64,000 nt of DNA from Phytoseiulus persimilis. Its lineage: Eukaryota; Arthropoda; Arachnida; Mesostigmata; Phytoseiidae. A model generated the notes under the pieces. That model was given only the letters and a program-made list of their open reading frames with translations, made no database searches and had not been told where the DNA came from. Position numbers and translations under genes: made by a program. This document shows, in pieces, positions 256 through 42,400 of this stretch. Numbering within the stretch: the stretch's first letter is position 1; every line of letters begins with the position of its first letter. The stretch spans positions 26,966,745-27,030,744 of the forward strand of contig CM075102.1 in the NCBI GenBank assembly GCA_037576195.1. Reading direction: 5' to 3'.

Positions 256-2646
256 ATTGTGTTCCCTCGGCGATACGAGGCGTTATTCTTGCTCTTCGTG
301 TTGTTTCTAAGCGAAACTCCCGTCGTGATTGTTATATTGTCGACGGTGCCGAGTCTCGTCAGCACGGGACAGCCCTGAAACCTTCACCTGAATTAATGCC
401 GGACTTAATCGAGGATTCGCTTGAACCACCATGAAATTTGTCGGTAATGAAGGTATATATCTCGGACTTCAAGTTAAGTTGTCTTCCTTAGAGTTCTATG
501 TGGTCCTGCACCCGGGTCGCCGCATGTCTTCGAGTGCCCCGATGTTGGAAAAAATATCAAAGCCGGCGTGGGAGAGTCAGCTTTGATCCCTCTGCTGACG
601 GAATTTCCGTAGTCCGGAAGATTCGGGGATACCACCCGAAATTCAGGTGGAAACCCGGATCCGTTGAGCGGAGTTCGTGGTGGGAGGAGTTGGAAAGAGC
701 AACCTGTTCATTCTGAGATCCTGTATTCAAATCGTGAGAGCCCGTCGAGAGACCCTGGTTTGCATGCTCATTGAGGCCACGAAAGCGAATGATCGAATCG
801 ACCATCGGTGGGCGTACGCTCTGGCTTGCGCGAGGAGAGAGGGAATGAGTCAAACTCTGATTCGATCCCAAGGGAGAGATGCCTGACGACACTGTTCGGG
901 TTCGGGAATACAGTCAATACAAAAAATGAGAACAGCTGGTTCCCGCTCTCCGAGCTGAATACGATGTGGTGCAACACGTCGGAAATTCGCTCATCTCGTT
1001 CCCAGGATAGCGACTAAGCTGGCCGTTGGCCTCTTGTCGGGCCACAGGGGTACTGTAGTAATACCCACGGCGCTGACGCTGGTTTGGTATGCACTTCCCT
1101 CTCATGTCTACCCGACAACGTACGATCACGAACTCTTCCGAACCTCTATCCTCTCGCATCTTCCGGATAATGAGCCTCGGGCTTTCTTTAGTAGATATTT
1201 TCTCTATTAGCCCCACACTCCAGCTTGATTTTCCATTCTCCTGGGTCGTGCGTGAATGCATTTTGTCCCAATGGCTCTTTTATCTTTTCCCGTTGTCATA
1301 TTCCCGATTTTCCTCAGGGTCTCCCCTTCGTGATTTGCTCCTCCAAAAATACATCTCGCCCGCTTCAATCGGTTGGTTTGGACGATCTCGTTGAAGTTGT
1401 TCCAACACCCCGCGACTCTCCTCTACCGCGCTCTGTTCGCCTGTGTCTCAACCATACTCTTCCTTGGAATATCCGGCCTCTTCCAAACGAGCTTTTCATT
1501 CAGATACATGGCCTCGCTCAGTCTCTCAGCCCAAGAGCCGGGGATACAGCTGACGAATATCTGAACGAGTGAATCTCTGGTGCGCGGTGACCACCCCGTG
1601 GTGTTCTACGGTTCAACAAACAATCTCCGCCTCCGAGCCGATCGCTAACTCCAGACCATCAGTGGAAGAAGCTTGCTCTCCTCCTCACTCCATGCACACA
1701 TTGGTCGCCGACTCAGGGAAATGTCTGGAACTTGGCAGGCTTTCCAGTAGAAATCATCATTATCAGTTATTGGAGTCAACTCGTCTGCTATTGAAGAATA
1801 CTGCTTTATTCTTTTCTTCTGTCATTCGGTCCTCCTGCGCGAACGGTTTCCCCATCCGTAACGTCGGGTGCAAGATAGCGTTTCTAACATCGCCTGAAGA
1901 CCGCCGTTCTCCCGCATGCTCGTTGCTGAAAGTTGGTCATATGCGAGCTGCGCGCAGCTGACCATCCCCCAATAAATAGCATCGACTCAGAAGAATCTCG
2001 AATAACATCGCCAGCTGCTACCGCGTCGGAATAAACGCACGAACCTACAAATAGCGATATATGACCGCCTGGGGTGTCCGAGCACGTTCGCAGGAGGGTG
2101 CTCCGAGGAGTATGTCTTCTCCTCGGTTTCGGATTGGCGGGAAAGCTGAGCAGAGCGGAGCAAGTTTTGGCGCCAAAATTTAGTATCACGAAGTAACCAG
2201 CCCATCTGAGTTTTTCATATTCTGAACCGCACGAGTGCGCGAATTTCCACTATTTGGAGCGTTTCAGACCGAAAAATGCGTTAATTGGGAGGACATTCGA
2301 TCGAAATACGTCTCTAGATCCAGAATGACGAATTGTGGTGGCGGACCGTCAACCCGCATCGGTGCCCTCTCTCCACTGCAGGCGTACGAACCGGAAAGTG
2401 CCACACGCCAGCTTCAAGCGGCTCGATAGCAAGTGCGCGTTGCAATTCTCGCTTCGAGTAAGAGGCCACATACAACCTCGTGTACTTTGTTGCGACAGCA
2501 TCTACGAAAAACGTCAAGTTGAAGACGTTGTCCTGCTGACGATTTTGTCGTCAATTTTGTTATCGACAGGTGCTGGCAAAGCGCGCTGAAAGTCCACGAC
2601 AAGTTACCTCGTTATTCGGTTTCCGAAACAGTTAGAGTATTTCACA
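256..2646. other. intergenic stretch without a confident gene
   Basis: Apart from the weak membrane-protein ORF at 1373-1564 and the plus-strand AATAAA at 1971-1976, I see no conserved coding sequence, RNA gene or repeat here. The last part should contain the promoter and 5' UTR of the NAP1 gene; no clear TATA box was recognised. Confidence 0.4.
1373..1564 (+). CDS. possible C-terminal exon of a membrane protein, unidentified
   Basis: This frame has a marked preference for C or G at third codon positions and encodes one convincing hydrophobic segment (around LFACVSTILFLGISGLF) followed by a short polar tail and a stop. An AATAAA lies about 400 nt downstream at 1971-1976 on the same strand. 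No family is recognised and no upstream exon could be joined to it, so it may be the last exon of a larger gene or a chance ORF. Another frame in the same stretch is also open, which lowers confidence. Confidence 0.22.
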   Translation: MVWTISLKLFQHPATLLYRALFACVSTILFLGISGLFQTSFSFRYMASLSLSAQEPGIQLTNI

Positions 2647-5600
2647 ATGGCCGGAGGAGAAGACAAAACTTCAAACGGAGGTGAAGTCGAAGGTAAGTCA
2701 TTCTGCCCTCCATTTCGGCTCTAATGTCCGGAGTGCCTCCGTTGTCATTGACCGAGAGTCGAGTCTGCGATATTCGTGTGGACGCGGCTCCGATCCTCCC
2801 ATTGAATAATGGGCGGTGCCTGGTGCACGTGTATTGAAATTTTCCATCTCTGCCGCTTGACCGCACGTGGTTCGATCGGAATATAACCTAGCTGTTGGCT
2901 TCGAACCGTTATCAGGCGACGCCGAACTTCAGTAGCATATGCCGATTCATCAAAACAGACGCACCCGACTAAATATAGATACCGTGACTGCTCTGTATGC
3001 GCTAAAATGTTCCGTGCTGCACAGCATGGACGCTCTAGCGTCCAGGCAGCGCTGATTGGATGATTCGCTTTTTACCGTCCCATCGCTCACTTCAGACTTT
3101 GTGCATAGCCAGATCTTGGATAACGCGTGCTACTGAGTTCGAATATGCGTCCATTTATTTTATGTTCATTGAGCTCTCAACTTAACATAGTCGTTGCACG
3201 TGATATTGTGGATACAGTAGTGGTAGCTGGGCTGGTTTGGTGTTTTAGGAATGGATATGGCTGCCCTGAAGACGCGTGTGCTCACCGACCTTGGCGTAGT
3301 CTCTATGATGTCCAACAAACTGAACTCCTTAGTAGGCATGCCCAGCCATTACGTTGCGGCGCTCCCAAACGAGGTGAAGAGACGCATCAAGGCACTCAAG
3401 AAGCTGCAGGTGGATTATTTAACACTGAATGGGGAGTTCTACAAGGAAGCGGCTGCACTAGAAAACAAGTACTTCGCGAAGTACAACGAACTGTTCAGCA
3501 AGCGGAATGAGATCACAACCGGGAAGCATGAGCCATCGGAAGAAGAGTGCGAGTACAAAGAAACAAACGCGGATCTCGCCGCTGACCTGGCTCAAGCGAG
3601 CTCCAGTTCCGAGGTAAGAAGAACAAATTCTTGTTAACAACCATGAGCTCAGATCTGTTTGGCTTCCTTGTCAATCACTCGGCCCACACAGCGCACGAAC
3701 AGCTCAGTGAAGCGGCCCAAGTGGCCGACGTAGAGTTTCCTCTGGCTCACTACGGAATTCAAATTCTATGTATCCATGAGTCGTCGCACATTCGGCTGTT
3801 CGATCTGCCGCCCATATTCACAAGCGGAGAAGAATTCGGGACACCGGTATTTTTAGCCCCGAAACTCACTAGAAGCCGAGATTCCTACAGCACGTGGCGC
3901 GTTGCACATGACGTCATCACGCCATCTCGTGCGACGACGCATCCATACATTCTCTTGCCAACCTGTTTTGGTCGCACGGTTTTCGGTTGCGATCGTAGGA
4001 TGACGGCCCTTGGAAGATCATGCTGGGAATTATTCCCCTTCTCGAATCTGTGGCATGGCCCCCTCGGAGTCCGACGGTCTGGTCGCATATGACTTCGCTG
4101 CCCCCCATAGGGTCTCTGCCCCTGGTCAGTTGCTGCCAGAGTAACGGGACTCTACCCTAACTGTTTGCGAGCTTGAGCGCGGCGTGAATGCGGCTGTCAA
4201 CCTGTGTCTCCCGCCCACGGAAAGCTGTCGCGTGTGGAGCTGCTGTTCAGAAGCAGTTACATCAGATGTGGAAGACAGTGTCGAGGGATCGCTCTTCAAT
4301 TTTTCGCGACGATTGCAGCCCGTCAGCGGAATACCTTCCTTCTGGTTGACGTGTATGAAGAACGCGATTGACGGCACAAATGATTTCATTACGGAGGAAG
4401 ACGAACCCATTCTCGAGCACCTCAGCGATGTCGTCATTGAAGATGGAATCGACACCTTCAAGCTCCATTTCCACTTCAGCCCTAATGACTTCTTCAGGTT
4501 AGTATGCTCAGATTACATTCCAGCTTTCGCCTCCGCAATCCAGTTTTCCGCGGTAACTTTGGGGTCCAGGAGTAAAGGCTCTCCGTCCCCCAGTAACGAC
4601 GATTCGCTCTTCGATGTCGACACTATCCGATTCTGCTCTCCCCAGCATTTTGGAGGCTTCGGGATCGGAATAAAAAAATTCGTACGATTCGTTTCAGCAA
4701 CGCGGTGCTGACCAAGGAGTTCAAGCTGAAGCTTTCGCCCACTGAAGAAGACCCATTCAACTTTGACGGTCCCGAGATCATTGCGATGAAGGGAATGAAG
4801 ATAGATTGGAAGTCAGAAGACAAGGACGTCACCCTGAAGAAGGTGGTCAAGAAGCAGAAGAATAAGAAGACCGGTGTCACCAGAACTGTCACCAAGTCCG
4901 TGCGAACGGACTCCTTCTTCAACTTCTTCAACAACACTGAGTGGGTCAACGATTCTGAAGATATGGAAGAGGATCTCGCAGAAGCCTTCCATACGGACAC
5001 CAACCTCGGTTCGTTCTTCCGTGAACGCCTCATTCCTCGAGCGGTCCTCTATTTCACCGGTGAGTTTCACAGTTTTAACTTTCCTCTGTGAGAACCGTCT
5101 TTAACCTGCTAGCTCGGTCGATACGGGCGACCAATTATTGCTTGTTGGTCGTCCCATCCCGAAGCACGAAATTCGTGTCTGATTGCGCCTTCTGTTTGCA
5201 GGTGAGATGTCGAACTACGATGAGGATTACGACGAAGAGATGGACGAAGGGATGGACGACGCCGATGAGGCTGCTGGTGTGTATCAATAAAAAAACTGTT
5301 CGATGATTCATTGAATCAACGCGCGTCGGCACAAGCCAGAAAGCGCTCAATGAGATAATTTCAAATTTTCACTCCTCAGCTTAGCGGTCCGGTGCGTGAA
5401 TAAGCGAGCTCTTGGATTCTCGGATCCATTTAGATTTTTCAACTTCATGTGCACCCATACGCAATTTAGGCGGCAACAACTTCGCGGGGCTGGGAGCGGG
5501 CGGGTACGGGCAACCAATCAAAGGCTTCGGTCTTCGAGTCGCCTCCGAACTATCAATAGTATACAGACTCACGTCAACCAAAACCCACACGAACACACAC

Positions 5601-10600: not shown

Positions 10601-13600
10601 TTCCCCGGACGCTCGGTTGGAAAAAATCCTCGATGATGATTTTGATTAGTCGGGTCTGGATTAAGGTTCTGTACTCCGGGTTATTTGCGAGCATCAGTTA
10701 GACGGAACGTGTTTGTTAGGCACGGCAGCGTTCTTTCCGAGAACTGTCTCAGACAATTAGTGGTTAGAAAGACCTGTCCTGCTAGTTACTCATTCCATAT
10801 TGAGCCTTGGTGAGTTCTAATCCCCATACGAGAATCGGAAATTGCATTCCGAAATCTTCATTTCGTCGAATTCACCGACTCCTCAAAAAACTCCGCTGCC
10901 GTCAGTGCGCGAACTCGATTGGGACACTCACACCACCCGAAGCAAGAAGCGACACAGATCACCGGAAAACATACGGAGGATAAAGGTCAACGGGCTTTTT
11001 GCACCAGGAGTACCGACTGACGAAGCCCTGGACTAGCCTCGTAGCAAGCATGACCCTCGCAAGTGGCGTTCGCTCTTCGCTCAGTCTACCTTTTCTGCGT
11101 TTCTGTCTAATTCTCTGCCTATCTGCCTGTGCGCCTGCCCGTCTACCTACCTTTAGACCTACCAGTGGCCAGCTGCTTTAGTGTTCGTTGAGGGGCTCTC
11201 TGCGCAGGAGGGGTCGACGGTATGTCAAGATCTGTGAGATCGCCTCCCGGTCGAATGCCGTCTGAGAACATGACCGACTTACTGCATCCTGACGATCCTC
11301 CTATGCCGCTTCCACTCGTGTTTGATTTTTCACCACCTTCGACAAACGCCACAGATACGTCTATGTAAATCTCACACCAGTTCAGAATCCGCTCCCATTT
11401 CGGGTCTTTCGTCGCCCACAGAAAATCAACTACAGTCACGAAGACAGAGGAGAGAATAAATTGGCGATGATGACTACTCCCAGCTCCTACTCCTACTCCG
11501 GCCGTTCGAGCGCTCATCAGTGGCATTCTCGTGAGGAAGCGATTACATGGAAGAACCGAACCGTGGAGTTTGCAGGACAGGGTCCATGAGCGGAGGAGTT
11601 TACTGCGCAGCACAGGTCTGGTGCAATGGTAGCGTTTGGTCATGCTCAATAGGGTGAATCGGTAGCTTATCGAGAAACGAAGGAAAGGTAGGTCGGCAGA
11701 GCAATGATACACACCTTTCTTCAGCACTCCGACGGGTACCATGACAGTTGGCGGGGGTAGCTGAGCTGTGGACGACATTTGTGCTAGAGGGCTTACGGTA
11801 GAACAGTATTCCATGGGATTCGAAGGATCGGGCCGAGACCATCGTTCCACTGAGTTGACCACAAAAGTGAAATCAAGAGCCACACCGGTTAGTTTCGACA
11901 CACGCCTCCCCAATGCTGGGTCACCACGCACGTAGTTCTTCCTTTCTAATCGGAGCAGGATCGAATAGGGAAACGATTGTGGGAGAGCAAGAAGGCAGGG
12001 CAGTCAGGAATCGTCAGTTGACAGCTCCCGGAGCCGCCCTGGACAAACGATCACCTCAAGGGAGGATCCCGGGCATCAAACTGTCCGTCAGGAAATTTTT
12101 AATGCTCCGAAGGTTTGGCTAGACTGGAACCACATTTACCTAGCGTGCGGAACGACTTCATTCCCGAATCTCGAACAGTTCACAGTGACACTAAGTCGAC
12201 CACATCGAGCACAGCCCGCTAGCGGAAGAGGCCGATTGACTGGACGGGTCCCGTTGTCGGCGGATAGTTTATGCTGAACCATGCTCGAGCCCGAAGGCAC
12301 TCTCATGCTGCACCCACTTCACGAGCTATCAAAACTCTTCATTCCCTTTCGACATTCTACTCTCGACTCCTAGTTTTCGCGGGCGGAAAGACGAGCACAG
12401 TCACTGTACAAGCGGAACGATGGCCTCCAACCGTCTCATCATAGAGAGGAATTGTTCCTAAACGAGCACACAAACGCAACAATGATCAACGAAATCGAGA
12501 AGAAACGAAAATGCGGGAATTGAAAACCGACGACATTCGACGTATGGAGTTTGCCCCATAACAACATAACCCGAGATCGAAAAAAAATTCAACGACATTC
12601 TGATGAAATCGCGTGATCATGATTGTTGAGTCCGTGCCCTTCCTCCGAATCATGATCTTCGAGGAAACGTCAAGATGCAAGACGAGCTTCGTCGAGAAAT
12701 CGACGCCAGGCAGTTTTTCCAACTTCGGTTGCCTCCGAGAACCCGTTACATACCTTTGTTGAGGATTTCAATGCAATACGAGCATACCCGAGCGAGCTCG
12801 CCATCCATGAACTGTAGCCTTGCCCTGTCCTTGCAACAGTTACCGCATAAAACCTGTCGGAGATTATTGGAAGCTTTGCTTGGTAAACTTCTCAGTTGAA
12901 GAGAGTCCAATTCAGCGGACGCCCATTCAGAATCGGAGATTGAACCCGATCCCGCTGCTGCATACCTTGCCACACGCGCGACAATGATGTCTTCGACGAA
13001 ATATCGTGAAGTCCTGACCGCAGTTCATGCAGATCGGGGCGTCTTCGTCATGAATCCACATCGGTCTGACTTTTCCCAGAACCCCTTCGCTGGGAGCTAC
13101 AACCGGGTCCGATTCTGGAAAGCGGATCCGTGCAAAGTTTAACATGCCGGTCGGAAGATTCGCACCTCGCGACATCTTTCGTTGAACGGGAACCGAGTGT
13201 TTTCCGCGGGGAACGGAATCGGAGGCGACTGAAGGTCGGAGCTCCGGGGGATCCAATATCAGTCAACTCACCGCCACCTGCGGCTCCCTGCTCAGCTTCA
13301 TCAGAGTTGATCGCATCATCCTGGTCGCAAGTCATGGAATCGATCTGCGGCTTCTTTAGTGATGTCTCGTCGCTAGCTGAATCGTGCTCTTCAGCACGGT
13401 CAGGCGTGGCGTCCTCGCTCTGCGCTGCCGGGCTGTTTGACTGCTCCGCCTTTCGCACGGGAACCTCGGCTGGGGCCTGACTCGAGACCTCAAAGGGATT
13501 ATCCAGCTCCTCGATCGAATGTGAAGCGTCCTCGTTGTTGTTGTTGACAACGTTCTCCGCAGCCTCGCTCTCTATGACCTGATCTGGATCAACCGGCTCG

Positions 13601-31600: not shown

Positions 31601-32783
31601 GGAAAGTCACCACGCCGAACCCACTCTCCTGCGAAGGGGCTTCGCTTCAGCTCTAGAGGGCAAGATGGGCTCTTGTTGATTTCCATCTCCTGCGCCGACG
31701 AGGCAACAAGCTGTCCGTCCCGGGGTTCGGCTGCTTGTCTGCCCGCCTGGCTATCGAACAAGTGTGTGAAGGAGCCGCCATAACAACGTTCAGCCAGCGC
31801 GAAACAGAAGCGAAACTTCAAAAGGATCACCCGGGCTCAGAGTAAGTCTTTTCCATGGTTTTGAGCAGTTCGAACAGCGTTTCCGTGGCACGAAAATTCC
31901 GGTCTGGGCGCTCTCTCGTGGACCTCGATCACCGACAGACGCTTCAGAAGTTTCGAAATGTCAGTGGTTCGCTGCGGGAACCCCCACTCTTCAGAGCAGC
32001 GATAGCTCAAAGCTCCATGGCTGCCTGTCGGAAATGCGGAAATTGAGGAGTGGAAACTCACTCGATCGACATCGCCGCCTGCTGAAAGCGAATCGAGCAA
32101 CAACCGAAAACATACGAGAACGAGTTCCGAAGTTGCGTCGGTACGATCCCTGATACTAGGGCTCAAACACCAGAATTTTTTGCGGGACCTTCCATAAGCG
32201 CGCAGCGAGAAAAGGCCATTCGATTGCATAATCGAGCAATGACCTCCTCTCGGCTTTGCTGGAGACAATGCTGCGATAACACACGCGCTTCTGAAGCAAG
32301 GGCAAATGGGTCGGGGCCATCTGAATTTTGCCATTTCAACTTACCCATTGAGAGAAGTTCGCTAACACCAAAATGTCGATGCTGAAGCCATCATAGGTAA
32401 CTTCGCATTCGCCCCGGATCCGTTATTCATAAACGTCTGAATTGCCGCCACCGCCGATTACGATATCACCCGATCCAGCGGTTCTCAACGTGGCTGCGAC
32501 AAGATTATCTGAAGGAAGAAGCACTTGCGCTGCTGGACCACTGAGGGCTCATTAGCCCGCGGGCTCGCGACTGTGCGTCGGTTTGACGGACATTATCGGC
32601 CGATCCGGTCTGTTCTAGACCTTGACGTTCTTTGGTTCTGATGTGTATCCGTAGAAAGATTCGGAATCGGCAAAGATCGGTGGCGACAAAAGTTATGTGA
32701 GCTCGGATAGCTCACGACTTCCCATTATTGGAATAGTTCATCTTCTATTCCAGAAGACTCACTCGGAGAATTCCCCCATTCAG

Positions 32784-34156
32784 ATGAAGAGCTGGAGTGA
32801 TATAGCTTTCGAGGAGCTAGGGGAAACACCGGAAATCATGGAGAGCGCCCTTCGAGATTTGAAGACGGTCATCAGAACTCAAGGCCGTTCATCGGTGCAC
32901 TATGAAGACGATGACGATTTTCTCATCAGGTTCCTGCGAACGTGCAAGTTCGACGTTGACCGCGCCTTCCGGATGGTGAATAACTACTATCTAAATCGGG
33001 CCTCACACAGCAACAAGATCATGCCAAAAGGGAAAGGTCCACGAGACACAGAGTTCTACGCAAAGCTCCAGACGCTGACGGTGCTGAGGAGGAAGAATCA
33101 TGACGGTTCCACCGTTGTCAGTAAGTTATTCGAGATCTGCGGTGTGCACAATGGACTCCACCAGCCAGAACTAAACCTGAGGACATTTTTCCCTTCGAAC
33201 GAGCGAGCTGATCAAATGAAGCTATCAATAATTCTGGGAGAGACATCGTTCCGCGCGATGTTCATCTCGGACGATGCTCGCTGAAGCACTTGAGCTGGAA
33301 TACTCTTCAGTTTCGGCCTCCCGTGGGGGCGTCACTTAATCCAGGGTCTGGACTTTCCGTTGATTCGTTTCTCTCGTTCTTCAGTGCTCCGGAAAGGACA
33401 CTGGGAGCCTTCGGACGGCACAGCTGTACAAGCTGACATGCTTTTCCTTGGGTTATATCTTCTGGAATGGCTGACGAGAGATCCCGAAGTTCAGGTGACC
33501 GGAATAAGCTTCGTTTATGACTGCGACGGCTTTGGCATGAGACACTTACCTTACGTGGACCTAGCAGTCTTTCAGGTGAGTGAACAATGTATTGACGATC
33601 GTGCGGAAACATTTAAGGAGTCGATGATCTCATCTTTCCAACTGAGGCGTTTCTCACCTTCAGAACAGGCACGCTTAAATCGGTGCGAATCTGAGACTTC
33701 CTTTTCTAGTTCCTGACGAGCTGCATCAACAACAGCTATCCCATGAGGGTGAAAGCCATACATGTCATGAACGTCTCTACGCCTTTCCGATTCGTTCTCA
33801 ACCTAGTGACTCGATTACTTTCTCAGAAGGTAATCGATGAGCAAACGACTTATTTTCTCTTCCAATGGCCGCCATTCAACCTTGCCCGATTAGCTCACTC
33901 GCGGATGTTCTCGTTCCAGGTTCGCAACCGTTTCCACGTTCACACCGACAGGGACGCTCTTCTGGATTACATCGACCCGGAAATACTCCCGCTCGAGTAC
34001 TCGAAGCAGTCGAAATCAGGACCATTCAACAACGCGTGGATGTTTGAGAAGCTATGCGAGAACCACAATTGGTTTGTCGAGAGGAGCTTCTACGGAATAC
34101 AGAAATCCGCCTGTGATAAAGAATCCAGTGAGAGCAAGAGCGCCTGGTTCTCTTGA
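32784..34156 (+). CDS. CRAL-TRIO (Sec14-like) lipid-transfer protein, four exons, 294 aa
   Basis: This belongs to the alpha-tocopherol-transfer/clavesin-like group of CRAL-TRIO proteins, soluble carriers of hydrophobic ligands or phosphoinositides. Exons are 32784-33120, 33385-33575, 33710-33829 and 33920-34156, all in phase (885 nt). The N-terminal helical CRAL-TRIO-N domain is clear (DDDFLIRFLRTCKFDVDRAF, then a YY-L-N-R helix). The lipid-binding fold follows, with VTGISFVYDCDGFG on the central strand, then RVKAIHVMNVSTPFRFV, and the terminal RFHVHTD...DYIDPEILPLEY that matches the family's end. Length is typical. I chose the ATG at 32784 because conserved sequence starts there and it lies directly after an acceptor-like ttcag. 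The frame is open upstream to 32697, so a longer start or an upstream exon is possible. The 90-nt intron 3 has no in-frame stop. No AATAAA was found downstream before the mobile element. Confidence 0.9.
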
Positions 34157-34657
34157 GAACTTGATTTAGGCCCGAGCTTTTATCGAATTGAGATTGAAGG
34201 TATCAAGATCAAGGCAATGAAAGTGAAATGTTTGCGAATATTCTTGAACCAGGTCCGTAGAGGAACGAGGAAACCATGTTGCGGCGCACTCGATGGGGAA
34301 TGAGTTGACTGCACTGTATATTTTCGACTCCAGCTCACGTTGCTCACCGCGAAGAGACGCGACGTGCACGCACTCAGATCACCCAGATACCAACTCTCTA
34401 TCAAGAGAGCATTTCCAATGTACTTAAGAAATACAAGAGATTAGTCTGTTTCTCCACAAGTTGTTTGGTTCTCTTTCCTCATCGGATGACGATTCGCCGA
34501 GTTTTGTCAGACTCCTGAGGCTGACGGATCCACTCTTCCTTGAGGTAGCTGACACCTAGAAATGCACCTGAAACACCACGCTGAGGAGCGGAGCGAATAA
34601 CGGCTCTTAAACAAGAATTCTCCGAAAACGGTTCATTCCAACGTCCTTACTATAAAT

Positions 34658-34800
34658 AACCAGCCGGCCTTTGGCCGACTGGAGTCGGCCGCGCTGCGCG
34701 CGCTTGAACGGCGCTACCTGCCATCGAGGCACTTTTCTCTCCCTTCAATGGGTCAGCATTCCGATTCTGAAAAGTATGGTCAGATTGGTCTCGGAATCAC
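34658..34800 (+). repeat. left terminal inverted repeat of the minisatellite element
   Basis: Matches the reverse complement of 37890-38029 with a small number of substitutions. It contains the GC-rich palindrome at about 34673-34690. Confidence 0.85.
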
Positions 34801-34825
34801 CCCCCCCCCCCAGAGTTGGGAGAGG

Positions 34826-37800
34826 AGTGATTCCGGGGTCAATCTGAGCATTACTTCCCAACTCTGGAGGGGTGATTCCGAGACCAATCTGAGCATTACT
34901 TCCCAACTCTGGAGGGGTGATTCCGGGGTCAATCTGAGCATTACTTCCCAACTCTGGAGGGGTGATTCCGGGGTCAATATGAGCATTACTTTCCAACTCT
35001 GGAGGGGTGATTCCGGGGTCAATCTGAGCATTACTTCCCAACTCTGGAGGGGTGATTCCGAGACCAATCTGAGTATTACTTCCCAACTCTGGAGGGGTGA
35101 TTCCGAGACCAATCTGAGCATTACTTCCCAATTCTGGAGGGGTGATTCCGGGGTCAATATGAGCATTACTTTCCAACTCTGGAGGGGTGATTCCGGGGTC
35201 AATCTGAGCATTACTTCCCAACTCTGGAGGGGTGATTCCGAGACCAATCTGAGCATTACTTCCCAACTCTGGAGGGGTGATTCCGAGACCAATCTGAGCA
35301 TTACTTCCCAACTCTGGAGGGGTGATTCCGGGGTCAATCTGAGCATTAGTTTCCAACTCTGGAGGGGTGATTCTGGGGTCAATCTGAGCATTACTTCCCA
35401 ACTCTGGAGGGGTGATTCCGGGGTCAATCTGAGCATTACTTTCCAACTCTGGAGGGGTGATTCCGGGGTCAATCTGAGCATTACTTTCCAACTCTGGAGG
35501 GGTGATTCCGGGGTCAATCTGAGCATTACTTCCCAACTCTGGAGGGGTGATTCCGAGACCAATCTGAGCATTACTTTCCAACTCTGGAGGGGTGATTCCG
35601 GGGTCAATCTGAGCATTACTTTCCAACTCTGGAGGGGTGATTCCGGGGTCAATCTGAGCATTACTTCCCAACTCTGGAGGGGTGATTCCGAGACCAATCT
35701 GAGTATTACTTCCCAACTCTGGAGGGGTGATTCCGAGACCAATCTGAGCATTACTTCCCAATTCTGGAGGGGTGATTCCGGGGTCAATCTGAGCATTACT
35801 TTCCAACTCTGGGGGGGTGATTCCGGGGTCAATCTGAGCATTACTTCCCAACTCTGGAGGGGTGATTCCGAGACCAATCTGAGCATTACTTCCCAACTCT
35901 GGAGGGGTGATTCCGAGACCAATCTGAGCATTACTTCCCAACTCTGGAGGGGTGATTCCGGGGTCAATCTGAGCATTACTTTCCAACTCTGGAGGGGTGA
36001 TTCTGGGGTCAATCTGAGCATTACTTCCCAACTCTGGAGGGGTGATTCCGGGGTCAATCTGAGCATTACTTTCCAACTCTGGAGGGGTGATTCCGGGGTC
36101 AATCTGAGCATTACTTTCCAACTCTGGAGGGGTGATTCCGGGGTCAATCTGAGCATTACTTCCCAACTCTGGAGGGGTGATTCCGAGACCAATCTGAGCA
36201 TTACTTTCCAACTCTGGAGGGGTGATTCCGGGGTCAATCTGAGCATTACTTTCCAACTCTGGAGGGGTGATTCCGGGGTCAATCTGAGCATTACTTTCCA
36301 ACTCTGGAGGGGTGATTCCGGGGTCAATCTGAGCATTACTTTCCAACTCTGGAGGGGTGATTCCGGGGTCAATCTGAGCATTACTTTCCAACTCTGGAAG
36401 GGTGATTCCGGGGTCAATCTGAGCATTACTTTCCAACTCTGGAGGGGTGATTCCGGGGTCAATCTGAGCATTACTTTCCAACTCTGGAGGGGTGATTCCG
36501 AGACCAATCTGAGCATTACTTCCCAACTCTGGAGGGGTGATTCCGAGACCAATCTGAGCATTACTTCCCAACTCTGGAGGCGTGATTCCGGGGTCAATCT
36601 GAGCATTACTTCCCAACTCTGGAGGGGTGATTCCGGGGTCAATCTGAGCATTACTTTCCAACTCTGGAGGGGTGATTCCGGGGTCAATCTGAGCACTACT
36701 TCCCAACTCTGGAGGGGTGATTCCGGGGTCAATCTGAGCACTACTTCCCAACTCTGGAGGGGTGATTCCGGGGTCAATCTGAGCATTACTTTCCAACTCT
36801 GGAAGGGTGATTCCGGGGTCAATCTGAGCATTACTTTCCAACTCTGGAGGGGTGATTCCGGGGTCAATCTGAGCATTACTTTCCAACTCTGGAGGGGTGA
36901 TTCCGAGACCAATCTGAGCATTACTTCCCAACTCTGGAGGGGTGATTCCGAGACCAATCTGAGCATTACTTCCCAACTCTGGAGGGGTGATTCCGGGGTC
37001 AATCTGAGCATTACTTCCCAACTCTGGAGGGGTGATTCCGGGGTCAATCTGAGCATTACTTTCCAACTCTGGAGGGGTGATTCCGGGGTCAATCTGAGCA
37101 CTACTTCCCAACTCTGGAGGGGTGATTCCGGGGTCAATCTGAGCACTACTTCCCAACTCTGGAGGGGTGATTCCGGGGTCAATCTGAGCATTACTTTCCA
37201 ACTCTTGAGGGGTGATTCCGGGGTCAATCTGAGCATGACTTTCCAACTCTGGAGGGGTGATTCCGGGGTCAATCTGAGCATTACTTTCCAACTCTGGAGG
37301 GGTGATTCCGGGGTCAATCTGAGCATTACTTTCCAACTCTGGAGGGGTGATTCCGGGGTCAATCTGAACATTACTTTCCAACTCTGGAGGGGTGATTCCG
37401 GGGTCAATCTGAGCACTACTTCCCAACTCTGGAGGGGTGATTCCGGGGTCAATCTGAGCATTACTTTCCAACTCTGGAGGGGTGATTCCGGGGTCAATCT
37501 GAGCATTACTTCCCAACTCTGGAGGGGTGATTCCGGGGTCAATCTGAGCATTACTTCCCAACTCTGGAGGGGTGATTCCGGGGTCAATCTGAGCATTACT
37601 TTCCAACTCTGGAGGGGTGATTCCGGGGTCAATCTGAGCACTACTTCCCAACTCTGGAGGGGTGATTCCGGGGTCAATCTGAGCATTACTTTCCAACTCT
37701 GGAGGGGTGATTCCGGGGTCAATCTGAGCATTACTTCCCAACTCTGGAGGGGTGATTCCGGGGTCAATCTGAGCATTACTTTCCAACTCTGGAGGGGTGA

Positions 37801-37895
37801 TTCCGGGGTCAATCTGAGCATTACTTTCCAACTCTGGAGGGGTGATTCCGGGGTCAATCTGAGCATTACTTTCCAACTCTGGAGGGGTGATTCCG
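34826..37895 (+). repeat. 45-bp minisatellite, about 68 units
   Basis: The consensus unit is 45 bp, for example starting ggtgattccggggtcaatct and ending ccaactctggagg. Units differ mainly at two places: ggggtc versus gagacc, and tttcc versus ttccc. The period is a multiple of three and the unit lacks stops in three frames. As a result ORFs of more than 1,000 codons run through it (one on the plus and two on the minus strand), each a 15-residue repeat. These look like by-products of the period rather than genes. Unit variants recur at fixed offsets, showing higher-order duplication. Confidence 0.97.
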
Positions 37896-38029
37896 AGACC
37901 AATCTGACCATACTTTTCAAAATGAGAATGCTGACCCAGTGAAGGGAGAAAAAAGTGCCTCGATGGCAGGGAGCGCCGTCCAACCGCGCGCAGCGCGGCC
38001 GACTCCAGTCGGCCAAGGGCCGGCTGGTT
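37890..38029 (-). repeat. right terminal inverted repeat of the minisatellite element
   Basis: Reverse complement of the left end at 34658-34800. Differences include one or two base changes in the GC-rich part and an extra T in the acttttt run. Confidence 0.85.
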
Positions 38030-39456: not shown

Positions 39457-42400
39457 GAATGATCTCTTCTTCGACCTGTACGACTGCGTCTCCACAGCTC
39501 GCCGGATCGATGTTCCTCACATTCATCTTGCAAGTTGCACTTACGGAGGGTTGATTCGCCAGTTCTCTAGGACCGGTGGTGCTTAAGGAGCCAACCGAAC
39601 GGCTCTATTCGGCCCACTCACTTGAGTTTGCATTAAGTCGCGCAATCTCTCATAGACAGGCAATTCTCGAGCGGCTTGGAGACAGACGAGCCAATGGTCA
39701 GTTTCCCAGCGAGCGAGCACACCTTGGCAAGTTTGGGAGTCCGACGAGCGCTCCTGGAATATCGGGAAACGTCCACTTGACGGCAAGGCGGAGTCCCGGT
39801 TTGTTTCATATGTTGTTAGTCCGTGGATCTTCGTTCGAAGTCTCCCTGACCCGATACGCACATTCGACGTTGCTTCATTCAGCAATCGAAGTATGATCGT
39901 TCTGATTCAGAGTGCTCTTGAGCTCTGAATGTCATCAACAGCCCTCAGGTGGAGGCGGCGATCGACGAGTGGCCCGTCGTTTGAGTCTATTCCCGAACTC
40001 ATAAGATATCTCGTGTTGGAAATCTGCTTCTGCTGTACCATGCACGATGCTTCTGCACTATCACACGGTGAATCTCCAATCGAACGACGCTCAACGCTCG
40101 TGTTGCTACACGAAAACTTAGAATGAAGAACGAATGACTCATTGTAGGATCTACTGACCTTGAATAGCACTTGAATCGAAGCTTAGAGTAGTTGTGACTT
40201 CGTGTTATAAATAACTTGGCAGGTTGGGAGCGCGAGTCGTTTCAAATGAGTGCTGGCTGAGCTTGGTGCGTAGCCCTCTCTATGAAATATCGTGACACAT
40301 TCTCAGAGAATGTGAATGAATGTTAACGAGAGTTCACGATACATTTTTTCAACTTCGGGGATCTCCTCGACGATCTCGTCCTTCCCATATCATGGAGAGA
40401 TTGATTTTTTATACGAGGTTAACCCCACTATCATGGTCCGGAAAACTCACTCCAAAACGATCACCGAATATTGACAAAAGTATGACCAGGATGACTTGAC
40501 CCAGATGTATCTTCAAACCTTTCCCAAAGTATCGTCATGAGAAGACAGACGACTATTTAAGACAGACATGAGCTCCCAGAGAGTGATATGTCCGGGGCTG
40601 AACCCTGAGGCAAATAACTAGGGATGCATTTTGCCTTCGACAAATAAGGCATACGATCTTCCACGACACCCAGAGATTATATCGGACGAATTATATATAT
40701 TAAGGATCGTCAACAGCCGAGTCGGTAGAATAGGTGGGACGTCTTCCATTGATGAGCACGGACCCGAACATTTGATAGCGCTTCGGTTCGAGGGAAAGAG
40801 TGAGGAAAAAGCGCGCATTGCTGATTATTATGTTCGAAGTTCGCACAATTTCCCATACTCTGGCCCAAGAGAGATGGCTGTCATCGTCGACTGGATTCCC
40901 GACCAAAATTTTTGCTGTCTTATCTTCCAAAAATCGAGCTGTTCCACAGGGAACTCTGATGAGAGCACGGAGAGTGATGGGGAGTTCGCATTAATAACCG
41001 GATAGTCGGTCCTGCTTCCTTTTTCCCGGCAAGATGATGAGACGATATCCTGATTTCTACGGAGGATATCCAAGACGCGATGGCTCGCAATAACGCAGCA
41101 GGGAGAAGAATAATTTCCTCCCAAGGACCACGAAATATCATCACAGCTCATGTGAACCAGCAGCTGCTAGACGCAGAAGCAGTCGTAGGCTTGAGAGGGC
41201 TCGGAGAGTTCTCCACCGAACCCAGCAAACGTGGGTCTCTCTGAAATCCATCTGCTTCCCGTACGGCCGTCTCTCCACGGCATTCTGCTCCGATGCCTCT
41301 CTAGGGGCTCGAGTCCATGATTGTTCGTTTCTCCGCGAGGTGAGCGAGCGGAGCGACTGCGCGCCGTCTCGGCTGGACCCACGTTGCTCATTGAGGACAA
41401 ACAAGCGCTGTGGACTCGACTCGGTTTTCAACCAAAAGTGAGGAGAGTTCATCGTCGTTGTCACAATCTAGCTGCTGGGCGGCGGAGGGTCATTGTATAT
41501 AGATCTCATCTTTGAGTTGAATTCACGAAAACGCAGCCGGAGCGGCCGAGGTGCTGAGCCATCGAGGTACTAGCTAACATTCTATGTTGTCAGAGCCTGA
41601 TATCAGCTTGTCATCTGCACCCTCGTGGAGTCTCATCTGGGACTATTCAGACCAGTCTTCGACCGCCTACTCCTGCGGAAACGAATAAGGAAATTCTACT
41701 TGAAAGAACGTAAAAACTGACCCTGATGGTTTGCAGCGATCCGGCGATGTTATTAACTCATTGAGCTCGACGTTCCTGAGAGCTGCTCCAACAGCAGAAC
41801 CAGGATCGTCATGGAGCCCCAGCCACACGTGTTCCAACTGATCGGATCCCGCCGTTCGGTATGGTTTACTTGGAGACGAATCGACGAAGAAGACAGAAGA
41901 ACCGACATCAGCGATCGCAAGGGGTTCCTAGCTCAGAAGGGGAAGATTGGGAAGAACTGCTCAACCTCGTATGAGAACTCCTCGACACTGTGAAACTGAC
42001 AAGGGCTGTCGGCATCGCCACTCTCCGCTACCAGACGCATCTCAGGCCGTGAGCCTCGACTATAATTTCGCAATATGATGAAAACTCCTGGCAGTCATTG
42101 CTTGGGGAACAGAATGATCTACGCGCTGAGCAATGAAGTTGCTCGATATGTACGACGTTTGGCGGTACTTCTTCTTTCATCCGATCATGATTCCAAATCA
42201 CCCGCCACACTTCGAAAGTTCACTCAAAGGGCTACCACAGCTACATATAAGAAACAGGGTAACCAGCCTTCACTCGACGATGTGCTCGTCTGGCCTTCCT
42301 TCATTAGATTGGTCTTATGTCGGGATACAGGATTAGTCCATCACTGAGGGAGTCGATTGAGTGTGCACCGGAACTACTTCAGCTCTGAGAGCCTCATACG

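Follow-up and report, generated by a model that had tools for sequence, protein, structure and literature searches.

A minisatellite-bearing Helitron of Phytoseiulus persimilis and its probable fold-back derivative

The element at positions 34644-38027 (bounds after coordinate correction) of the DNA analysed here, a 64,000-nucleotide window of the Phytoseiulus persimilis genome, probably derives by fold-back from a canonical, non-autonomous Helitron with a 45-bp minisatellite body. It would have arisen by inverted self-insertion of one copy into the 5' end of another, followed by loss of the middle, a reading to which we give a probability of about 0.7. Backward insertions of this kind seem to have taken place repeatedly in the family. 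The window element is a one-off, and its interest rests on a junction between a Helitron 5' terminus and an inverted 3' end that recurs in the genome.

Anatomy of the element and of its family

A sequence-only reading of this DNA had described near-identical inverted arms around about 68 units of 45 bp. The arms are confirmed as an inverted repeat of 149 nt (34658-34806 and 37881-38029), 93% complementary, and the array as 68.8 copies of period 45 (95% matches, score 5439 in TRF), its 68 units falling into 17 distinct unit sequences. The outermost bases lie outside the arms proper: 34658-34659 (AA) are part of the 16-nt Helitron 5' terminus and 38028-38029 (TT) are host DNA. On the minus strand the left arm's CTGG ends at 34660, abutting the T of the 5' terminus, and the arm includes one 45-bp unit in inverted orientation before the array reverses (Table 1). 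The fold point where this reversal occurs has a single match in the genome (pattern search with at most 3 mismatches, control 0), so that the window palindrome is a single event and not a family. No target-site duplication is present by reading at 34643/38028.

Table 1. Features of the fold-back element (window positions)
Feature	Position	Strand	Remarks
Helitron 5' terminus TCCTTACTATAAATAA	34644..34659	+	1 mismatch to the family 16-mer; preceding host base G
Inverted Helitron 3' end (AAGCGCG variant, attributed to a second copy) and one inverted 45-bp unit	34660..34806	-	
Fold point, reversal of unit orientation, run of 12 C	34800..34832	.	genome-unique
Minisatellite body	34822..37915	+	68.8 units of 45 bp
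Helitron 3' end (AACCGCG variant, attributed to the recipient copy)	37903..38027	+	
Right-arm hairpin GGCCGACTCCAGTCGGCC	37997-38014		
Right-arm CTGG	38024-38027		
Host T	38028		

The hairpins that had been noticed in both arms are real, by reading and by folding. Reading gives GGCCGACT-CC-AGTCGGCC; the folding program prefers, in both arms, an alternative with a 10-bp stem (CCAGTCGGCC-AAG-GGCCGGCTGG) that ends at the last base. Read outward, the arm continues from the hairpin with 9 nt and CTGG; all 44 distinct flanks have this CTGG with T as the next base, in a scan that tolerated 7 mismatches in the 35-mer ending in CTGG. The long open frames that run across the array (1113, 1094 and 1146 aa) were discarded as a by-product of the 45-bp period. 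Rfam and tRNA scans of the window, the latter with the bacterial code, gave no matches. Elsewhere in the window, open frames at 11143-12003 (minus strand) and 32655-33284 (plus strand) carry SARA and CRAL_TRIO_N domains according to Pfam.

Relatives of the arm are abundant, as a search of the genome suggested by the sequence-only reading revealed: the last 31 nt have 280 matches (at most 2 mismatches) against none for the control pattern, so the match is not due to chance. The exact 16-mer TCCTTACTATATATAA of the 5' terminus also occurs 280 times (control 0), and the family 5' end, TCCTTACTATATATAATCGGC and following bases, at 520 places (control 0). A search of the 181-Mb genome with the left arm produced 867 first-look candidates, of which 40 were scored (42 rows). 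The 34 distinct loci that were read, in stretches of about 7.6 kb (5.0 kb for L033), were picked as best-matching: the window together with L009-L043, in which L019 shares DNA with L011 and L038 is a duplicate of L037.

Within the stretch fetched, a single 3' end was found in 25 of the 34 distinct loci and more than one in the other nine. Outward-facing pairs of 3' ends without an intervening 5' end occur in three loci (window, L033 and L040). One-armed loci have their array in a fixed orientation relative to the arm, and the window array keeps to it with respect to the right 3' end. At the far side of the array a clean TCCTTACTATATATAATCGGC-type 5' end is found in 11 of 34 loci; in the remaining ones the array leaves the stretch, or the 5' end is truncated, unrecognisable or degenerate. 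Pairing of the ends was done with 100 listed places for each, the 5' list reaching 91 of the 100 listed 3' ends. For 43 of the 100 3' ends in the list, an exact 5' end from the other list lies upstream on the same strand within 15 kb (46 pairs, defining lengths of 0.5-11 kb); wrongly ordered pairs numbered 2 among the listed ends, and opposite-strand pairs 6.

The family thus has a 5'-TC terminus, a 3' CTRR end (here CTGG) with a hairpin a few bases upstream, and flanks of an A-T insertion site (the host T at the 3' side and an A before the 5' TC in 14 of 16 distinct flanks, L022 being taken in a shifted frame), without target duplication and with an empty site in L011. These are the ends of canonical Helitrons, and the Helitron comparison made in the sequence-only reading was a good guess; its view of the element as non-autonomous mobile DNA with a minisatellite body was right. 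A Helentron identity is ruled out by the ends and by the A-T flanks. The subterminal inverted repeats of 12-15 bp typical of Helentrons and HINEs are absent from L010 and L032, where the longest inverted match between the first 80 and the last 125 nt (at most 1 mismatch) is 9 bp in both.

Several Helitron families apparently have the first 16 nt in common and differ beyond. A further Helitron-like family is represented in the window by a 5' end at 40683-40706 (minus strand), which reads TCCTTAATATATATAATTCGTCCG and follows an A. The hexamer TCCTTA, with which the terminus begins, is doubled or tripled at some 5' termini (L011, L030, L048). L030 also harbours, inside a Helitron 5' end, an element at approximately 1887-4113 of the locus with ends CACTGCCCGACAG and CTGTCGGGCAGTG and a TAA duplication, which we take to be PIF/Harbinger-like.

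A candidate autonomous partner

The genome has 101 matches to the Pfam profile Helitron_like_N. The sequence-only reading had called for an autonomous partner sharing the ends, and a candidate was found at C3:24444287-24453759. This 9.5-kb locus joins the family 5' end, an array, a RepHel frame and the family 3' end, which finishes at 24453759. The open frame (C3:24447687-24453542, 1951 aa, seen in parts) has a Rep domain recognised by PF14214 (Helitron_like_N, 213.9 bits) with a GLPHCH motif, and a helicase carboxyl terminus recognised by PF02689 at 28.7 bits, slightly above the cut-off of 27. The combination of a predicted Rep (HUH) with a Pif1-like helicase is that of canonical Helitrons. 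No Helentron-type endonuclease fused to RepHel was found in the parts of the frame covered, which stops just past the helicase motif. On these sequence features the locus is likely the autonomous partner of the family, its activity being predicted.

The partner locus has 45 matches to the unit core in 3 kb at its 5' side and further units immediately upstream of the frame, showing that the minisatellite belongs to the autonomous-type element too. Five Helitron 5' termini of one orientation form a stack at its beginning (L052:588-1110, C3:24444287 onward, the first at 24444287) and resemble the multiple 5' termini of Fusarium Helitrons.

The sequence-only reading had taken the arms for the two ends of one inverted-repeat transposon. 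This interpretation was dropped: each arm is a Helitron 3' end, and most of the loci read show one of them. A true TIR transposon, of MITE or Foldback type, with a minisatellite core would explain why 93% complementary inverted arms enclose an array. It is contradicted by the single arm of 25 of the 34 loci, by the lack of a target-site duplication, by the Helitron 5' terminus that precedes the left arm and by ends held in common with a RepHel frame. Inversion of both ends in every copy together with target-site duplication, the hallmark of TIR elements and MITEs, was not found in the loci read. One-armed anatomy, 5'-TC and CTGG-3' ends, absence of duplication and the RepHel partner rule this identity out for practical purposes.

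Junctions between 5' termini and inverted 3' ends

The 16-nt 5' terminus is joined to an inverted 3' end at 45 places in the genome (at most 3 mismatches, control 0). An exact search with a free gap retrieved 19 places, 16 of them joined at one base, two at TCCTTACTATA-CCAGCC and one a base short. The same-direction junction at the site of the 45 gave one unclear match genome-wide, and none was found at the other plausible site, between A9 and T10, when tested from the 3' side. Such a same-direction nest could shed its 3' side by re-mobilising and so escape the A9-T10 count; the five stacked 5' termini of L052 suggest such a loss, which makes the zero at A9-T10 an incomplete test.

L011 displays a clean two-sided nested insertion, AGCCGA-element-TTATATATAGTAAGGA, with the exception of additional TCCTTA hexamers at both 5' termini. 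Both sides of the junction are present, by coordinates only, at four more loci (C1:8.59 Mb, C3:18.32 Mb, C3:25.05 Mb and C3:0.42 Mb). At C2:7.684-7.694 Mb several junctions follow in succession, two of them preceded by AAGCCGA, in an arrangement like that of Russian dolls. Twelve junction termini were read, with A before nine and G before three (window, L023 and L039). At least three types of 3' end take part in the junctions (AAGCGCG, AACCGCG and partner-like), which speaks against a single founder.

The preference of the element for its insertion sites was assessed on 33 host 3' flanks, after removal of 11 nested ones. T comes first in all, and the A+T fraction at +4 to +12 is 0.785 versus 0.498 at the A-T sites of the window, an excess that none of 20,000 random samples attained. 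The 12 host 5' flanks give 0.611 at -4 to -12. The opposite strand of the element's own 5' end provides the inverted self-site GCCGA-TTATATATAG, which ranks in the top 1.02% of 7,462 A-T sites. Its relative rate is 14.7, compared with at most 1.9 for the same-direction sites inside the 5' end, the A9-T10 site having the predicted preference of 1.9. The occupied site just before the first base scores 7.9. Sequence preference alone would account, on a crude estimate, for about 0.1 junctions where 45 are observed; further self-targeting, for instance by transposase held at 5' ends, or some amplification is therefore needed.

These data are compatible with the following course of events. RepHel would insert the element at A-T sites followed by an AT-rich patch, and the element's own 5' terminus on the opposite strand, GCCGA-TTATATATAGTAAGGA, would be such a target, favouring the inverted orientation. 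A second copy would enter the recipient 5' end backwards between positions 16 and 17, giving 5' terminus, inverted copy and remainder of the recipient. At the window locus the middle, composed of the 5' half of the inverted copy and the 5' remainder of the recipient, would then have been lost. The expected product begins with the 16-nt 5' terminus, continues with an inverted 3' end and a single unit in the same backward orientation, and finishes with a forward array and a 3' end; it mimics a TIR element. The backward insertion step is observed at L011 and, by coordinates, at the four other loci, and the loss of the middle at the window is deduced from its structure. A locally formed inverted structure, which the sequence-only reading had named as the outcome that would refute it, comes nearer to the origin of the inverted arms, while the element is genuine mobile DNA.

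Some observations fit this course poorly. The G, instead of A, that precedes the 16-nt terminus of the window counts a little against plain insertion, a small point. Clean far sides are seen at about 5 of the 45 junctions and most of the junctions are not demonstrably complete nests, while the recipient may in some cases belong to another Helitron family with just the 16 nt in common. For the window locus no intermediate stage was found.

The main rival is a one-step fold-back, in which the end of the rolling-circle strand jumps onto the complementary strand of its own element or of a sister copy, by template switch or by intramolecular self-insertion, and creates an inverted duplication at the 5' terminus with no separate nested copy. 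We judge it unlikely. Kinship between arms, judged on identity ranks and not on the 46-arm tree, bears on this question. Resolution of the tree is low (1 of 35 branches starred), with the left arm in a group of 25 rows (93/93, not starred) and the right arm outside it. By identity the window arms are distant, each having many closer 3' ends elsewhere, with the mate ranking 39th of 45 for the right arm and 32nd of 45 for the left; an intramolecular event would not produce this. L040 has the plan of the window with another fold point, also of single occurrence in the genome, and 128 inverted and 3 forward units. Its two arms are more alike (mates 3rd and 14th of 45), and this closeness, in a second and different unique fold-back, is what a one-step event would give and counts against insertion followed by loss. 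L033 carries a pair of inverted 3' ends and lacks the 16-nt terminus; the mates of its arms rank 10th and 20th of 45. Between its inverted and forward arrays, at 2691-2923 of the locus, a run of GACACCCCGC-like repeats lies beside a partial 5' region.

A short microhomology at the window fold point, noticed by eye, is also in line with a one-step event, as is the partner locus, where the host flank and the 5' terminus recur inverted beyond the 3' end. The flank is 119/125 identical between the two sides (L052 left, L045 right), and simple insertion does not explain it. The same flank adjoins the array of L013, however, with 121/125 identity and is thus a repeat, seemingly one with a favoured A-T site, so that its reappearance in inverted form may reflect chance in the choice of target. 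The clean nested insertion at L011 also argues against the one-step event.

Another possibility is that the composite of 5' terminus, inverted 3' end, intervening DNA and 3' end became mobile itself and gave rise to a dispersed Helitron subfamily that has pseudo-terminal inverted repeats. With its 5'-TC and 3' end still correctly ordered it could be moved, and one junction is common to the 45 places, with 16 of the 19 exact matches at the same base. The fold points of the window and L040, the two tested, nevertheless occur once each, and the three or more junction 3'-end types argue that no single founder existed. We consider such a spread very unlikely.

Backward self-insertion followed by loss of the middle is the reading we retain for the window. 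A broader proposal, to which we assign roughly even odds, is that the Helitron 5' terminus is an orientation-locked self-target. Its opposite strand would mimic the preferred target, an A-T site with an AT-rich patch, and copies would re-enter it repeatedly backwards, each newcomer supplying a fresh target. The resulting nests of alternating orientation, built like Russian dolls, would convert a minisatellite Helitron scattered through the genome into palindromic blocks of satellite DNA, of which the window would be a collapsed example.

Such a structure illustrates how a rolling-circle element devoid of terminal inverted repeats can resemble a TIR element, a trap for automatic annotation. The proposal links transposase target preference to the growth of inverted satellite arrays in a testable manner, an AT patch of the guiding kind being built into the element's own left end. 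With a family, an array-bearing candidate autonomous copy and a target preference, it is a fairly complete case of satellite-like DNA carried by a Helitron.

Relation to known systems

The comparisons below draw on parts of the cited reports. The bat elements Helraiser and Helibat share with the mite family the 5'-TC, the 3' hairpin followed by CTRR (CTGG here), the A-T insertion and a RepHel partner (PMC4778049). Helraiser prefers AT-rich DNA around the insertion site, most strongly towards the 3' flank (PMC4778049), and the mite family has the same bias at the 3' side (0.785 in 33 flanks against 0.611 in 12 5' flanks). Unlike what the consulted part of that report describes, the mite family has a long 45-bp minisatellite body and recurrent inverted junctions with its own 5' terminus.

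HINEs and Helentrons of Metaseiulus occidentalis, and DINE-1, have subterminal inverted repeats of 12-15 bp, T-rich or TT insertion sites and a Rep/Helicase/Endonuclease protein, and central tandem repeats are known in Helitrons or Helentrons of Drosophila and a predatory mite (PMC4067079). The present family resembles them as a non-autonomous rolling-circle element with a 3' stem loop, some of those elements also having central tandem repeats. It differs from them, as far as that source describes them, by its inverted end match of at most 9 bp (L010, L032), by insertion between A and T and by a frame that stops after the helicase.

Cg_HINE of the oyster carries satellite-like central repeats (PMC7492417; PMC8268682). 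Here too short modules flank tandem repeats, the element spreads satellite units and there are arrays with a one-sided box. Cg_HINE is of Helentron type, in contrast to the present family, and the parts of these two sources used here describe no fold-back pair of 3' ends.

The composite FoHelis of Fusarium oxysporum offer a parallel in mechanism. Self-insertion was proposed for their multiple 5' termini, as was nesting in opposite orientation followed by loss of the inner termini (PMC5148889), the same logic of nesting and loss that we propose for the window. FoHelis differ in being non-canonical fungal Helitrons with one nested case and some multiple 5' termini, and the portion of that report drawn on here mentions neither a minisatellite nor a fixed self-target. 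A limited search of the literature, seen in part, retrieved no report of a fixed, orientation-locked Helitron self-target. Minisatellite Helitrons, AT preference at the 3' side and composite Helitrons are already known from these systems; the newer feature is the orientation-locked self-target proposed here.
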